Positions 28,227 through 63,985 of a DNA stretch of 64,000 nt are shown here, piece after piece (the first letter of the stretch is position 1; each line of letters begins with the position of its first letter). The position numbers were made by a program, and so were the translations under genes. Source of the stretch: Candidatus Kuenenia stuttgartensis (GTDB lineage Bacteria; Planctomycetota; Planctomycetia; Planctomycetales; Planctomycetaceae); the NCBI GenBank assembly GCA_945904015.1, contig CAMDPK010000019.1, positions 1 through 64,000 of the forward strand. The letters are read 5' to 3'. The notes below the pieces were generated by a model that worked only from the letters and a program-made list of their open reading frames with translations, searched no databases and had not been told where the DNA came from.

Positions 28227-28331
28227 CTAGAAGCGGTTGCAGAACCTAGCACGACGCGCGAGCGAGTGGTCAAAACGTCGGAAAAACAACCACTCGCTCG
28301 CGCGTCGTGCTGGTTTTGAAACAGCCGCTAG
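28227..28331. repeat. Nested palindrome (GCACGACGCG family), left of the pilus locus
   Basis: The inner arms AGCACGACGCGCGAGCGAGT (from 28248) and a reverse complement ending CGCGTCGTGCT (28311) are near perfect. Outer arms begin CTAG at 28227 and end CTAG at 28331 with a looser match. A second copy of the inner palindrome is at 34432-34489. The rest of 28186-28577 shows no gene. Confidence 0.8.
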
Positions 28332-37773: not shown

Positions 37774-37831
37774 GAAGTGCTCCTGATGTGGGAGATGTCG
37801 GAATCGAGAGATGGGCGGCGAGCGACCAGAG

Positions 37832-37921
37832 TAACCCGAAGCGTCAGCGAGGGCGAACGCTCCGAGTGACTGCGAATTCAGAGCGTCGTGGAACATTCGC
37901 CCTCGCTGACGCTTCGGGTTA
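37832..37921. repeat. Long palindrome in a divergent intergenic region
   Basis: TAACCCGAAGCGTCAGCGAG (from 37832) is matched by its exact reverse complement ending at 37921, about a 26-bp stem. The interval 37774-38051 must also hold promoters for the divergent STN-module and cytochrome genes. No other structure is seen in it. Confidence 0.85.
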
Positions 37922-38051
37922 GTTTGTTGGGCCGCTTCCTTCGGAGCAAAAACATATTGGACAATCGCTTTGCGAATGGCGATTCGGCGGCGATACACTG
38001 CGGTCGCCTTTCGACTCTGCTTCTCCCCTCGTGGTTCCACGGAGATTCGCC

Positions 38052-58639: not shown

Positions 58640-58690
58640 GGTTGTCGCCGCAAAGCGGGACCGCAACTATCTCGCGCGCGAGGTTTTTGG

Positions 58691-58855
58691 TGATAGGCCG
58701 CGCGCGGCATATCACAAGACGAGCCACCCGTGCAAAAAACAAGAAACGCTTCTTGACGTGCCGAGAAAGCAGCGGCATTCTCTCTCCCGAACATGTGACT
58801 CGCACCGACGGCTGAGACGTACTAGGCCGCGCGCGACTCACTTCACTGTTCTGCC
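58691..58855 (+). repeat. Cassette-junction repeat R1
   Basis: First of three related direct repeats (others 60179-60341 and 60829-60952). Shared parts are TGATAGGCCGCG at the left end (R1 and R2), TTGAC(A/G)TGCCGAGAAA, CATTCT, CTCCCGAACAT, and a right part near GGCCGCGCGCGACTCAC. It ends in the core GTTCTGCC (58848-58855). A weak arm pair GTGACTCGC/GCGACTCAC lies between CCCGAAC (58786) and the core. The preceding interval 58640-58690 is short with a small hairpin. Confidence 0.7.
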
Positions 58856-58891
58856 AAAATTCTGTCACACTGACACGTTGTGAGGTCCAGA

Positions 58892-59458
58892 ATGAGATGT
58901 CGTCGCTTTGCCCTACTGCTGGTGCTCTACTCGCTCACGACCTTTGCTGCTGAGCGACCCTCCCAGAATCCAACGTCGGCGTCGATCGCGCGGCAGCGAT
59001 TCAATCAGGTGTTCGTCAAGGTGATCATGCCGGTCACCGAGCGCACTCCGAAGCAGGATGGCCCCGTCGTCGAGTCCTGGGTTGCACAGCAACTCACACA
59101 ACTGGGCGGGGCCGAGTATTTCGCTGTCACAGACTGGGTGCCTGTTTGTGACGGGCTGCTTTCGGACGATGAATTCGACAATCGCGTCTGGAGTGGTCAA
59201 CTTGTCGGCAAGAAGTCTGGTAACTTTTGCCCTGTCGGCGGAGACCTTCCTGAACGCAAAGACGGCCGCGTGTTGGTTCTCGTTGGTGGCTGGGATCCAG
59301 GCGGGGGACACGAGGCGAAGGTCACGCTGGCGGATGAACCTGGCACTCGAGCCGTTGAGCCGGTGCTGCCTTCTTCTGCCCGCGGAAAAAGAAAGGCGAT
59401 TCCGGGTGAAAAACCGCTGGCTTATGTGGCCGTCCTGATTGGGCCGCCACCTCGGTAG
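58892..59458 (+). CDS. Small exported hypothetical protein, cassette 1
   Basis: 188 aa from the ATG at 58892 with GAGGT at 6 nt. A signal peptide covers residues 1 to about 22. The body contains IMPVTERTPKQDGPVVESWVAQQL and VPVCDGLLSDDEFDNRVWSGQL. No family is recognised. It lies in a cassette bounded by GTTCTGCC (58848-58855) and GGCAGAAC (59488-59495), exact reverse complements of each other. The start is 36 nt after the opening core, as in integron cassettes. Confidence 0.6.
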   Translation: MRCRRFALLLVLYSLTTFAAERPSQNPTSASIARQRFNQVFVKVIMPVTERTPKQDGPVVESWVAQQLTQLGGAEYFAVTDWVPVCDGLLSDDEFDNRVWSGQLVGKKSGNFCPVGGDLPERKDGRVLVLVGGWDPGGGHEAKVTLADEPGTRAVEPVLPSSARGKRKAIPGEKPLAYVAVLIGPPPR

Positions 59459-59487
59459 CGTGTCACGTCACACAGCAATGACGAATA

Positions 59488-59579
59488 GGCAGAACCATGC
59501 GGTGAACCGGAGCCGCCGATGACGCGGATTGTGAAGTCATAGTTTTTCGGCGGCGGACCGGTTACCGCCAGCGTTCGGC
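59488..59579 (+). repeat. attC-like recombination site B
   Basis: Order: core R'' GGCAGAAC (59488-59495); left arm GCGGT[G]AACCGG..GCCGCCG (59499-59518); 29-nt spacer; right arm (59548-59568, CGGCGGC..CCGGTTACCGC); core R' GTTCGGC (59573-59579). The left arm has an unpaired extra G, and the two cores differ at one base. An extra base in the left arm and complementary outer cores are defining traits of integron attC sites. Confidence 0.72.
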
Positions 59580-59596
59580 CGCCAGACCAATCGCCG

Positions 59597-60181
59597 ATGA
59601 GCGCGACGCACATGCGAACGAAAAGTCTGAAGCTGGTTCTACAGACCATCGAGGAAGCCCGCGCTGAGATCGAGGCGATGAGCCCGGCGGACAGGGCACA
59701 CGTGTCCGCCGACTGGCTCGCACGGCTTGGTGCCTTGACCTCGCCAGATCCGTGGACGCTGGGCTTCTCCTTGGTGCATCGAGACAGCGAAACGGTCGTC
59801 GGGTCGGCTGGCTTCAAGGGACCTCCGACAGCGGACGGCGTGGTCGAGATTTCTTATGGGGTCAATCCCGATCACCACGGAAAGGGATACGCGACAGAAG
59901 CCGCGCAGGCGCTGACCGCCTACGCCTTCAGCATCGGCAAGGTTCGCGTGGTCCGGGCACACACGCGGCCGGAGCCAAACGCCTCAACGCGGGTCTTAGC
60001 CAAGTGCGGTTTCCGACGGGTCGGCGAGGTGATCGATCCGGAAGACGGGTTGGTGTGGAGATGGGAGAAGGACTTGGAAGCGGTTGTCGCCGCAACTCTC
60101 CGCGCCGAGCGCGACGCGCGCCAATTTCAAGGCGATGACTCCGACCAACCCACGCACCCGCCGCGCCGTGGAGAGCGGTGA
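59597..60181 (+). CDS. GNAT-family acetyltransferase (RimJ/RimL-like), cassette 2
   Basis: 194 aa, ATG at 59597 (ATG at 59612 possible). The GNAT acetyl-CoA motif region is EISYGVNPDHHGKGYATEAAQALTAYAF, and the N-x-x-S..L-x-x-x-G-F block (PNASTRVLAKCGFRRVGE) follows. It should acetylate an amine of a protein, antibiotic or metabolite. GNATs are frequent integron cassette cargo. It starts 18 nt after core GTTCGGC and ends at the left end of repeat R2 (its stop TGA is in TGATAGG). Confidence 0.85.
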   Translation: MSATHMRTKSLKLVLQTIEEARAEIEAMSPADRAHVSADWLARLGALTSPDPWTLGFSLVHRDSETVVGSAGFKGPPTADGVVEISYGVNPDHHGKGYATEAAQALTAYAFSIGKVRVVRAHTRPEPNASTRVLAKCGFRRVGEVIDPEDGLVWRWEKDLEAVVAATLRAERDARQFQGDDSDQPTHPPRRGER

Positions 60182-60341
60182 TAGGCCGCGTGCGGGATAG
60201 CACACGATGAGTCCTCAGTGCGAACAACACCAACCGCTGCTTGACATGCCGAGAAAACAGCAACATTCTGTCTCCCGAACATCTAGCCATCCTGCCGACA
60301 GAGACCAATAAGGCCGAGTGCGTCACACTTAACTGTTATGC
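60179..60341 (+). repeat. Cassette-junction repeat R2
   Basis: Second copy of the junction repeat. It has TTGACA (60241-60246), 17 nt, CATTCT (60264-60269), a small hairpin GACATGCCG/CAACATTCTGTC region, CCCGAAC (60274-60280), and ends in GTTATGC (60335-60341). CCCGAAC differs by one base from GCCGAAC, the complement of the opening core GTTCGGC of the preceding cassette. I do not see long paired arms in this copy. Confidence 0.65.
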
Positions 60342-60628
60342 AGCAGAAAGAGACTGTCATGAAATCGGGGATTGCGATTGCGCTCATTGTTTGTGGCACG
60401 CTTCTAGTCATCACGCCAGCCGTCTATGACTACATGCTCCTCCGCAATGTGTCGAATGTGCTGCTGTCTCGCACCGACATGAGGACTGTTACCAGCGGCG
60501 AACCGCTGTCGTCGATGTATCGGTTTGTCTGCTGGTCGTTTGGGGCCATCATGATCGGCGTCGCCATTCTGCGGTCGTTAAAGAGTCCGCAAACGTCGGC
60601 ACTCGTTGGCCGTCCGACTTCTGCATAA
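60338..60628 (+). CDS. Small membrane protein, cassette 3
   Basis: 96 aa; ATG at 60338 lies inside the core GTTATGC; the ATG at 60359 (89 aa) is as likely. Two membrane helices (GIAIALIVCGTLLVITPAV; CWSFGAIMIGVAILR). The stop codon TAA lies within the closing core GCATAAC (60623-60629). Opening GTTATGCAG (60335-60343) and closing CTGCATAAC (60621-60629) are exact reverse complements over 9 nt. No family recognised. Confidence 0.55.
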   Translation: MQQKETVMKSGIAIALIVCGTLLVITPAVYDYMLLRNVSNVLLSRTDMRTVTSGEPLSSMYRFVCWSFGAIMIGVAILRSLKSPQTSALVGRPTSA

Positions 60629-60720
60629 CCAAACATTGCAATGGACCGGCCCGACGGCACGGTCCTAGTGAATCGCAAGCGTGGTTGGCACCGGGCCGGC
60701 CATTGAAGGCGCAGCATTAG
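60621..60720 (+). repeat. attC-like recombination site E
   Basis: Core R'' CTGCATAAC (60621-60629); left arm CAATGG[A]CCGGCCCG (60639-60653); right arm CGGGCCGGCCATTG (60692-60705). The left arm again holds one unpaired base. The right core should lie about 5-10 nt after the arm; the sequence there is GCATTAG (60714-60720), a degenerate form (ATTAG for GTTAG). Confidence 0.65.
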
Positions 60721-60828
60721 AAACCTGCGTTTGACATTCATTTGCCCTATCCGCCTCAACCTTGGAACCAGCGTCCACTCCAAGTTTCTTGTGCCTGCGG
60801 CACCCAGCTTCTGCGAAGCTGGGCCACC

Positions 60829-60952
60829 CGCGAACAACACCAACCGCTGCTTGACATGCCGAGAAAACAGCGGCATTCTGTCTCCCGAACATCGAGCCAT
60901 CCCGCCGACAGAGACCAATTCGGCCGCGTGCGTCACACTGAACTCTTCGGCG
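60829..60952 (+). repeat. Cassette-junction repeat R3
   Basis: Third copy of the junction repeat, lacking the left TGATAGGCCGCG part. It shares the TTGACATGCCGAGAAAACAG stretch with R2 exactly. GACATGCCG and CGGCATTCTGTC form a small stem-loop. It ends in TTCGGCG (60946-60952), preceded by C where other cores have G. A CCCAGCTT/AAGCTGGG hairpin (60803-60823) lies just before it. The stretch 60721-60802 holds no ORF. Confidence 0.65.
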
Positions 60953-60973
60953 GCGAAGAGCGTGGAGGCAACT

Positions 60974-61372
60974 ATGTCGGCAGCAGGAGCGAGCGCAGCG
61001 GCTGCGGCAGCGCGGCGGAGGCGGGAGCAGGAGGAGGAAGAAGTGAGCCTGATGAACACCGACCCCTCCGGGGCAGTCGAATACAAGATCCTCCGTAGCG
61101 CCACTCGGGCCTTCAAGGACCCCGCCAAGTTCCGCGCCGCGCTGGACGAGGAAGCCCGCGCCGGCTGGGAGCTGGTGGAGAAGCTGGACGACTCTCGGGC
61201 GCGGCTCCGTCGATCGACCGAGTGCCGTCAGCGTGACGCCGAGCTGGGCCAAGATCCCTACCGCACCCAGGTCGGGATGAGCGAAACCGAGCTGACCGTG
61301 TGGATCGTGGTTTCAATCCTCGTCGGCGTGGTGCTGCTCCTCGGTGCGGTGGCGGTTATGGTGCGGCGCTAG
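60974..61372 (+). CDS. Small membrane-anchored hypothetical protein, cassette 4
   Basis: 132 aa from the ATG at 60974 with GGAGG 6 nt upstream; longer in-frame translation upstream overlaps repeat R3. An Ala-rich start leads into an Arg/Glu-rich charged helix (ARRRREQEEEEVSL), a central part that reads VEYKILRSATRAFKDPAKFRAALDEEARAGWELVEKLDD (DUF4177-like in style), and a C-terminal membrane helix (VWIVVSILVGVVLLLGAVAVMV). It is bounded by TTCGGCG (60946-60952) and CGCCGAA (61385-61391). Confidence 0.6.
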   Translation: MSAAGASAAAAAARRRREQEEEEVSLMNTDPSGAVEYKILRSATRAFKDPAKFRAALDEEARAGWELVEKLDDSRARLRRSTECRQRDAELGQDPYRTQVGMSETELTVWIVVSILVGVVLLLGAVAVMVRR

Positions 61373-61384
61373 CGGAAGTCAAGA

Positions 61385-61482
61385 CGCCGAACCAGACGTT
61401 GCAGCAGACGGCCGCCCTCTTGCGTTGGTTGCGCGGCATTCCGTCTTTCGAGGGGCGCCGCTGCTGAACTGTGGCGTTCGCC
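61385..61482 (+). repeat. attC-like recombination site F
   Basis: Core R'' CGCCGAAC (61385-61392); left arm GTT[G]CAGCAG[A]CGGC..CCTC (61398-61419); right arm GAGGGGCGCCGCTGCTGAAC (61450-61469); core R' GTTCGCC (61476-61482). Two extra unpaired bases lie in the left arm. The remaining sequence to 61698 has no recognisable gene; a GGGACGTCCC palindrome is near 61560. Confidence 0.7.
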
Positions 61483-61698: not shown

Positions 61699-62610
61699 AT
61701 GACAGTCTCTGAGAAGCTGGCACAGTCGCTTCGCGTCCTGGTGGGCACCTCGCTGGGGGACGTGTTCTGGTATGGGCTGTTGGCCGGCGGTTTGTGGCTG
61801 TTCTTTTATGTGGCCTTCCGAGCGACGTTTCGGCATCGTCGGATTTCCAGCGGCGAGCCGACGCGACAGCAGGTGACACGCGAGGTGTTCTATTCCCTGC
61901 GGAGCATTGCCATCTTCGGGCTGTTCACGGGGGTCATCGTCTATGCCGCTTACTCTGGGTGGACTCGGTTTTATGTGAGCATTGACGCTTATGGCTGGGG
62001 ATGGTTCGTGCTGAGCATCGGGCTGATGATCGTCATCCACGACGCCTACTTCTATTGGACTCACCGCCTGATGCATCACTCCTGGCTTTTCCGGAGGCTG
62101 CATCACACGCATCACCTTTCGATCAGCCCGACGCCGTGGGCCGCGTATGCCTTCAGCCCGTTCGAAGCGGTGGTTCAGGCTGGGATCGCTCCGCTGATCG
62201 TGTTCACGATGCCGGTTCATCCGCTGGCGTTCACCTTGTTCATGTCGTGGCAGATCGCGTTCAACGTGTTCGGGCATTGCGGTTACGAAATCTTCCCGCG
62301 CTGGTTCATACGGAGCCGCGCGGGGCTGTTCCTGAATTCGATCACGCACCATTCGCTGCACCACGAGAAGTTCCGAGCGAACTATGGCCTGTACTTCAAC
62401 GTCTGGGACCGGCTGATGGGGACGAACCACCCCGACTACGAACAGCGTTTCGAGATGGCCACCGGCGCTCCGACTCATGCTGCGCTTGATCATCTTGGGT
62501 CAGGTCTTCAAATTTCATTTTTGGGCTCGCAATCCACCCCTGACTTTGATTCCACGTCGCCATTGCAACTCACATCGCGACTCATTCGTGAAACCAAAAA
62601 TGAAATTTGA
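61699..62610 (+). CDS. Fatty acid hydroxylase/sterol desaturase family protein
   Basis: 303 aa from the ATG at 61699 with GGGGAGG upstream. Four or five membrane segments. The di-iron His clusters are complete: HDAYFYWTHRLMHH, HHTHH and, later, HHSLHHEKFRANYG. These enzymes hydroxylate or desaturate lipids using O2. The last about 38 codons (from 62497) are palindrome-derived (GLQISFLG...RETKNEI), so the natural end of the protein was probably near NHPDYEQRFEMATGAP. The following amidase reads in another frame from the same element. Confidence 0.88.
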   Translation: MTVSEKLAQSLRVLVGTSLGDVFWYGLLAGGLWLFFYVAFRATFRHRRISSGEPTRQQVTREVFYSLRSIAIFGLFTGVIVYAAYSGWTRFYVSIDAYGWGWFVLSIGLMIVIHDAYFYWTHRLMHHSWLFRRLHHTHHLSISPTPWAAYAFSPFEAVVQAGIAPLIVFTMPVHPLAFTLFMSWQIAFNVFGHCGYEIFPRWFIRSRAGLFLNSITHHSLHHEKFRANYGLYFNVWDRLMGTNHPDYEQRFEMATGAPTHAALDHLGSGLQISFLGSQSTPDFDSTSPLQLTSRLIRETKNEI

Positions 62611-62621
62611 AGGCCTGACCC
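62497..62621. repeat. Inverted-repeat element joining two genes
   Basis: GGGTCAGGTCTTCAAATTTC (from 62497) is answered by an arm ending GAAGGCCTGACCC (62621), 28 nt each with one mismatch. The left arm forms the end of the hydroxylase frame, the right arm the start of the amidase frame (ATG at 62600 in the arm). Its AT-rich middle (ATTTCATTTTTGG) differs from the GC-rich neighbourhood. Confidence 0.85.
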
Positions 62622-63985
62622 CTGCGCTTCCACTGGCGTTCGCAACCGTTGCCGAGCTTGGCCAGCGATTGCGGGCACGTGAGTTCACCTCGGTTGAGTT
62701 GACGCGGTATTTCCTTGATCGTCTGGAGCGTCTCGGCCCGAAACTCAACGCCGTTGTGACGGTGACTCGTGAACGAGCACTCGCCGAGGCTCAGCAAGCG
62801 GACACCGAACTCTGCTCTGGCCGTTATCGAGGTCCGCTGCACGGCATTCCGTACGGCGCGAAGAACCTGCTCGCGACGAAGGGTATTCCGACAACCTGGG
62901 GAGCGGCTCCGTTCAAAGAGCAAATGTTTGACGCAGACGCGGCCGTCATCACGAAACTTTGCGAGGCCGGAGCAGTGCTGGCCGCGAAGTTGGCGATGGT
63001 CGAGATCGCCGGCGGATTGGGCTATCGGCAAGCCAACGCGACGTTCACCGGGCCGGGGCTGAACCCGTGGAATCTCAAGCGTTGGGCCGGCGGTTCGTCG
63101 AGCGGTTCCGGTGCTGCGGTCGCGGCCGGGCTTGTCCCGTTTTCCATCGGCACCGAAACGTGGGGGTCAATCATGACTCCCGCCGGCAATTGCGGAGTCA
63201 CCGGACTGCGTCCGACATACGACCTCATCAGTCGTAAAGGTGCGATGGCTTTGACTTGGACGATGGACAAGCTCGGCCCGCTGGCACGGACGGCTCAGGA
63301 TTGCGGATTGATTCTCAATGCTGTTCAAGAATCGTCGGCGCAATCGCACTCCGCGTCGCCGGCTCAGTGTCCGTTTCGCATTGGAGTGCTCAGCGATGCC
63401 GTTACGAAAGTGCAGCCGGAAGTCAAAGCAAACTTCGAGGCGTCGCTGAAAGTGCTCGAACGCTTCGCGACGCTCAGCGAGTGCAAACTGCCGGACTTGC
63501 CGTATGGTTCGGTCAATTCGCTGATCATCTCGTGCGAGATGGCTGCCACTTTTGAAGACCTCGCGAAGAACGGCAAAGTTTGGGAGATGACCGCTGACGA
63601 AGATCGTTGGGGGCTGTACTCGGCACTGACGATCCCGGCCAAGGACTACATCAATGCGCAGCGCATTCGGGCGATCATGCAGCGCGAAGTGGACACCGCG
63701 CTGACTCCATTTGATGCGGTCGTCAGCCCGACGTTGCCGAGCGTCGCGTACCCGATCGATCGTCCCTGGGACGAGTACCGCAAGGGCCTCTCCGGTTCAC
63801 AAATCGGCGGAGCCGGCAATGCCGTCGGCATCCCCGCCCTCTCAATCCCCAACGGCTTCGGGGAAGAGGGCCTGCCCACGGGTCTGCAACTCGTCGGCCG
63901 AGCATTCTCCGAAGGCCGCCTGCTCGCGATTGCGCAGTCGTACCAGCAGCAAACCGATTGGCATTGCCGACATCCCGCGATGTAG
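62600..63985 (+). CDS. Amidase signature family enzyme
   Basis: 461 aa from the ATG at 62600, inside the palindromic element. The Ser-Ser-Lys triad is intact: Lys in PYGAKNLLATKG, Ser residues in GGSSSGSGAAVAAGLVPFSIGTETWGS. The early segment SVELTRYFLDRLERLGPKLNAVVTV is typical. The protein starts directly with the domain, so a leader, if the ancestor had one, may have been lost when the element inserted. It ends near the window edge, with 15 nt after the stop. Substrate unknown. Confidence 0.9.
   Translation: MKFEGLTPALPLAFATVAELGQRLRAREFTSVELTRYFLDRLERLGPKLNAVVTVTRERALAEAQQADTELCSGRYRGPLHGIPYGAKNLLATKGIPTTWGAAPFKEQMFDADAAVITKLCEAGAVLAAKLAMVEIAGGLGYRQANATFTGPGLNPWNLKRWAGGSSSGSGAAVAAGLVPFSIGTETWGSIMTPAGNCGVTGLRPTYDLISRKGAMALTWTMDKLGPLARTAQDCGLILNAVQESSAQSHSASPAQCPFRIGVLSDAVTKVQPEVKANFEASLKVLERFATLSECKLPDLPYGSVNSLIISCEMAATFEDLAKNGKVWEMTADEDRWGLYSALTIPAKDYINAQRIRAIMQREVDTALTPFDAVVSPTLPSVAYPIDRPWDEYRKGLSGSQIGGAGNAVGIPALSIPNGFGEEGLPTGLQLVGRAFSEGRLLAIAQSYQQQTDWHCRHPAM

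Follow-up and report, generated by a model that had tools for sequence, protein, structure and literature searches.

Gene cassettes behind dispersed promoter-attI modules in Candidatus Kuenenia stuttgartensis: a probable distributed integron

Integrons are usually described with one attI site beside the integrase gene intI, and their cassettes past the first few are mostly silent; the sequence rules of attI are poorly known outside class 1. Clusters of attC sites lacking integron-integrases (CALINs) are commonly taken to lack the platform of attI and cassette promoter (Pc) as well, which is not part of their strict definition. According to the description of IntegronFinder 2.0, integrons typically have one attI close to the integrase, and attI sites outside class 1 are not detected by the program (PMC9024848). 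In the available text of PMC12444791, the CALINs of Xanthomonas occupy seven conserved chromosomal loci away from intI, and as far as that text goes they are the nearest precedent for the loci reported here. The attG sites of Loot et al. 2024, as summarised in the available parts of PMC11023631 and PMC12444791, are widespread and non-classical, belonging to neither the attI nor the attC type. In the delta-attI-type cassettes of mobile integrons, the cassette carries a partial attI in place of attC at its downstream end, within one array (PMC12901181). Searches of the open-licence literature for attI-like sites, or for attI sites that are multiple, secondary or dispersed, revealed no equivalent. 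In this work, we describe such loci in a 64,000-nucleotide stretch of Candidatus Kuenenia stuttgartensis (assembly GCA_945904015.1, contig CAMDPK010000019.1, positions 1 to 64,000; the whole stretch is called the window and its contig C19), where three gene cassettes each follow a promoter and an attI-like site.

Comparison of the window with the rest of the genome and with related genomes indicates that this bacterium probably has a distributed integron, consisting of one intact integrase IntI, encoded on another contig (C36), and at least a dozen dispersed, mostly sedentary Pc-attI loci without intI. Acting in trans, IntI would insert cassettes into each attI and excise them again through attC x attI recombination at G|TT, so that every locus would hold one or a few cassettes behind its own promoter. 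The window would comprise three such loci side by side. With somewhat less confidence, we consider it likely that the same organisation extends across the genus, where a single IntI in trans would serve at least a dozen promoter-attI loci inherited vertically; many cassettes would thereby be first and expressed at the same time, and each locus would be reshuffled independently. A preliminary description of the window, made from its sequence alone, had seen a CALIN-like cluster in a planctomycete; attC sites without a neighbouring integrase were indeed found, and what it had missed are the integrase elsewhere in the genome and the attI-promoter modules.

Cassettes and attC sites

All features of the window given with coordinates as cassettes, sites or modules lie on the plus strand. 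Cassette 1 (58849..59573) carries an open reading frame (ORF; 58880-59458) of 192 aa without a Pfam or NCBIfam match, and cassette 4 (60946..61476) an ORF of 132 aa (60974-61372) with a weak match to DUF4177, below the cut-off. The opening and closing cores are GTTCTGCC (58848-58855) and GGCAGAAC (59488-59495) in cassette 1, and C/TTCGGCG (60945) and CGCCGAAC (61385-61392) in cassette 4. With an attC covariance model, attC1 (59489..59579; crossover G at 59573) scored 82.4 bits (E-value 1e-21) and attC4 (61386..61482; crossover G at 61476) 63.8 bits (E-value 3e-16), both sites being members of the training set of the model. In cassette 3 (60336..60722; ORF 60338-60628, 96 aa, without a Pfam match) the opening core GTTATGCAG (60335) and the closing core CTGCATAAC match at 7/7 bases, and its attC (60623-60722) is degenerate, with 22.7 bits and an E-value of 3e-4. 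Nothing else stood out beyond these three sites when the rest of the window was scanned with the model. The fourth member of the row of cassettes in the preliminary description, its cassette 2, is the gene of a GNAT acetyltransferase (59597..60181; Pfam PF13302). The covariance model found no attC for this ORF, and before the next module there is no 8-base closing core at one mismatch or fewer; the best candidates have two. The GNAT gene is not shown to be a cassette, leaving cassettes 1, 3 and 4 of the proposed four. The two attC sites that lie close together (59489-59579 and 61386-61482), on a contig without an integrase match, make the cluster a CALIN in the strict sense. The reading of a CALIN as a degraded integron devoid of attI and Pc does not apply to it, as a core and a promoter lie ahead of cassettes 1, 3 and 4.

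We built the covariance model from 14 attC sites of the genus, which were kept from a first MAFFT alignment of 18 that had put some arms wrongly; a simple stem finder using AAC/GTT rules was too unspecific, and the model was used in its place. Rfam contained no matching family. The structure of the attC sites is classical, with R''/R' outer pairs followed by 4 bp and one extrahelical base, then by 6 bp and another such base, and finally by an inner stem, and the unpaired left-arm bases mentioned in the preliminary description are these extrahelical bases. Two-sided changes occur in 14 of the 20 pairs, and none of 500 shuffles reached the observed covariation, a test that is somewhat favoured since the structure was drawn from the same sequences. 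The model detected attC sites in 12/12 genomes of the genus, 22 of them in the Kuenenia genome under study at E <= 0.01, and the majority of attC sites are intact. The reverse complementarity of opening and closing cores, reported earlier for cassettes 1, 3 and 4, proved to be general: among 34 pairs counted from this genome and the genus, the opening core after attI and the R'' of the first attC are complementary at all 7 bases in 26, off at one or two bases in 7, and off at four in 1. Because 26/34 pairs agree at every base, the match is not due to chance. Perfect or near-perfect long stems of at least 23 pairs with AAC/GTT edges are also present at 28238-28320 and 37828-37925 of the window; they are not attC sites and are probably terminators or palindromic repeats.

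Promoter-attI modules and the integrase

Directly ahead of cassettes 1, 3 and 4 lie related sequences of 120-165 bp, referred to as modules A, B and C. The module (~160 bp) is made up of a palindrome, a sigma70-like promoter and an attI-like core reaching the G|TT crossover, with GGCCGCGTGCGNCWCACTTAACTGTT as the final 26 bases. In module A, the 26-bp palindrome GTGATAGGCCGCGCGCGGCATATCAC (58690..58715) begins 158 nt ahead of the crossover, the Pc-like promoter (58753..58781; TTGACG - 17 nt - CATTCT) has a -10 element beginning 72 nt ahead of it, and the core GGCCGCGCGCGACTCACTTCACTG|TT (58825..58850) has its crossover at 58848|58849. Module B has an imperfect palindrome at 60178..60203 (offset -157), a Pc-like promoter at 60241..60269 (TTGACA - 17 nt - CATTCT) and the core GGCCGAGTGCGTCACACTTAACTG|TT at 60312..60337, with the crossover at 60335|60336. 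In module C, a Pc-like promoter with the same elements, TTGACA - 17 nt - CATTCT (60851..60879), precedes the core GGCCGCGTGCGTCACACTGAACTC|TT (60922..60947), where the crossover base is C in place of G. Modules B and C are 92% identical across 118 bp and represent a local duplication. Two repeat families present in high copy number throughout the genus, resembling miniature inverted-repeat transposable elements or repetitive extragenic palindromes, have copies in the window at 62497-62624 and 60709-60854, the latter between the attC of cassette 3 and module C.

About 50 modules were gathered from 11 of the 12 genus genomes, and by eye (n=50) they sort into some five sequence classes, with poor alignment between classes upstream of the core. 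Of 49 modules, 28 have the -10 element of their best sigma70-like promoter 70-75 nt ahead of the crossover, whereas 200 shuffled controls gave 3 such modules on average and 8 at most; related modules in this set are not independent of one another. A palindrome beginning at -152 to -158 from the crossover ranks top in 19/49; examples from this -155 region are the one at 58690 and GTTAGGCAGCACGCTGCCTAAC in genome G010. In complete platforms the same palindrome sits between Pc and intI, and since the modules retain this palindrome adjoining intI, they probably descend from intI-attI intergenic regions. The module promoters, which have consensus elements at fixed spacing, may drive the first cassettes.

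The genomes of the genus are fragmented assemblies, apparently mostly metagenome-assembled genomes (MAGs), whose contigs with attI often stop at repeats, and the genome-wide counts, obtained by search tools, are lower bounds. The core pattern occurs at 10 places in this genome (reversed control, 0), in 11/12 genomes of the genus, and in 2/158 genomes of the other genera of the family. In total, ~14 attI-like sites on 12 contigs of this genome, including the three in the window, are followed by an attC; one site (C161) is without a recognised attC and one (C164) is cut by an insertion sequence. G074, a genome from another genus of the family, contains three modules of classes II and III on its contigs C414 and C435, with an attC after each. 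The single core match in G075, also from another genus, is without an attC and is therefore probably a chance match. In G010 (contig C143), a core GGCTGCACGCTGCTCAATTAACTG|TT, identical to the module core at 21/26 positions, lies upstream of intI and points away from the gene, with a cassette array following the core; in G008 (contig C52), a core of the same family lies upstream of a partial intI and is divergent from it. Homologous cores thus adjoin intI in relatives, and the sites are called attI-like for this reason.

The statement of the preliminary description that no integrase is present is correct for the window contig, where no integrase match was found, and incorrect for the genome. 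The genome search for an IntI-type recombinase revealed on C36 an intact IntI of 460 aa (TIGR02249, 416 bits versus a cut-off of 265; 421 bits when the protein was scored alone) with the Pfam domains Phage_integrase and SAM-like. At its N terminus this protein is extended by ~130 residues (L006:220-640) that match no Pfam family, and much of this stretch is common to relatives in Thiocystis, Imhoffiella and other bacteria. A second intI copy in the genome (G000:C6, about 82900-83660), ~80% identical to the IntI of C36, is decayed by a frameshift and the loss of most of the catalytic region. Within the genus, IntI scores above the TIGR02249 cut-off in 5/12 genomes, with large partial matches in G005 and G008.

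Cassette exchange and alternative explanations

Comparison with relatives revealed that the same cassettes stand behind different attI sites and that the same attI loci hold different cassettes. In G002:C299, a copy of cassette 1 with 91% identity follows a module of another class, and the match stops at 59580, the end of attC1; in G008:C47, a copy of cassette 4, also 91% identical, follows an attI of another class, the match covering exactly 60922-61478. Conversely, module A is 94% identical to a sequence in G008:C173 up to exactly 58850, the GTT of attI, after which a different cassette follows. The class IV locus (C233 in this genome) is orthologous in five species, with a conserved module and different cassettes; its left flank is 77-86% identical in four species, the contig of this genome ending in an insertion sequence, and in 5/5 species conservation of the right flank sets in precisely at the final attC G|TT. 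At a class II locus, G008:C150 and G009:C385 share 94% identity across 1.5 kb to +6 past the crossover and then hold different cassettes, and at a class I locus G008:C3 and G010:C303 show the same swap pattern. All evidence of activity is comparative, and the junctions of these swaps fall at G|TT. G009:C28 did not serve as an empty site for comparison: its left flank is 95% identical up to 58651 and its right neighbourhood is different. As orthologous attI loci hold different cassettes with junctions exact at G|TT, exchange continued after the species split, and it was most likely catalysed by IntI in trans. Precise cassette-sized differences among relatives, whose absence the preliminary description had named as a reason to abandon its proposal, were looked for and found.

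The same differences count against the main rival explanation, the classical view of CALINs, by which several complete integrons have lost intI and the cassettes are now frozen. The decayed intI on C6 fits this view, as do the palindrome that modules share with the region between Pc and intI of complete platforms, the several class I modules cut by insertion sequences, and the degenerate attC of cassette 3. Frozen cassettes are at odds with the different cassettes at orthologous loci, whose junctions are exact at G|TT; moreover, no intI remnants were found when sought beside the dispersed modules, the promoter-attI geometry is kept and most attC sites are intact, which makes loss of intI a possible though unlikely account. 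We likewise think it doubtful that the promoter-attI module is itself mobile, a small element that would create new landing sites, for instance via insertion sequences. Module A shares 180 bp with G008:C173, with no homology found further upstream, and modules B and C are duplicated locally. For an insertion sequence with the terminal repeat CACCCCTTTCAAGGTC (ends GACCTTGAAAGGGGTG), 33 ends were counted in this genome, mostly at contig edges (among them C36:129, C247:132, C98:132, C96:129, C233:8012, C6:83658, C95:29575, C164:126 and position 64666 of the window contig), and at least 8 of the ends read abut attI-type palindromes (GCWGCRYGCWGC), which suggests that it prefers attI/intI regulatory palindromes as targets. 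Against mobility, several modules occupy loci that are orthologous in two to five species and have kilobases of conserved flanking sequence, so that they are mostly inherited, and neither constant module ends nor target duplications were established. Mobility of the module is compatible with a distributed integron, as the story of its origin.

Insertion of cassettes by IntI into non-specific secondary sites (attG) around the chromosome appears very improbable. Dispersed single cassettes in a genome with IntI do resemble attG insertions as far as these are described in the available text of PMC11023631 and PMC12444791; the targets here, however, have in common a 26-bp core with a promoter and a palindrome at constant distances, are retained at orthologous loci and are similar to intI-linked attI, and their core pattern is nearly absent from the other genera of the family. 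A target that is neither attI nor attC and has no conserved module is thus not what was found. That the sites are chance inverted repeats or terminators around ordinary genes, as could be argued from the other places in the window matched by the simple stem finder, is hardly credible in view of the covariance model scores, the covariation and the exact opening and closing matches, and it is ruled out by the cassette-precise differences between species.

Several observations weigh against a distributed integron. The decay of the C6 intI copy means that some modules may come from dead integrons, and the intact intI on C36 is flanked by an insertion sequence end and a contig edge, with no attI beside it in the assembly. 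Several MAGs of the genus with attI loci show no full IntI, possibly owing to incompleteness, and the intI-linked attI of G004 differs in sequence from the dispersed sites of the same genome. Furthermore, 5 attC matches in this genome are without an attI recognised by the weight matrix; one of these (C135) has a class I attI variant ~870 bp upstream.

Comparison with known systems

If the dispersed attI loci work in trans, a single integrase can run many small arrays that are expressed, a CALIN is not necessarily a dead remnant, and the arrangement will have escaped surveys in which attI was sought only beside class 1 intI. The ~50 natural attI variants also form a set for working out the sequence rules of attI. 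Like a sedentary chromosomal integron, the system described here has an IntI of the TIGR02249 family, attC sites with two extrahelical bases, a G|TT crossover and a sigma70-like promoter upstream of attI; it differs in that attI-Pc loci are numerous and distant from intI, where the sedentary integron has a single attI adjoining the gene. With attG insertions, to the extent that these are covered by the sources available, it shares cassettes in the chromosome away from the integron, whereas the sites here form one recognisable family with fixed promoter spacing. With the delta-attI-type cassettes (PMC12901181) it has in common more than one attI-derived site per cell, but here the modules are complete, lie upstream of the cassettes and occupy separate loci. 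As in Xanthomonas, attC clusters are found distant from intI at conserved chromosomal positions; in Kuenenia, in contrast, the clusters start at an attI-like site with a promoter, and attI is not mentioned at the CALINs in the available text of PMC12444791. A further difference is that orthologous loci hold different cassettes here. Since the three cassettes each follow an attI-like site and a promoter of their own, belonging to a type present at many loci of the genus, the clusters are not simply integrase-less remnants.

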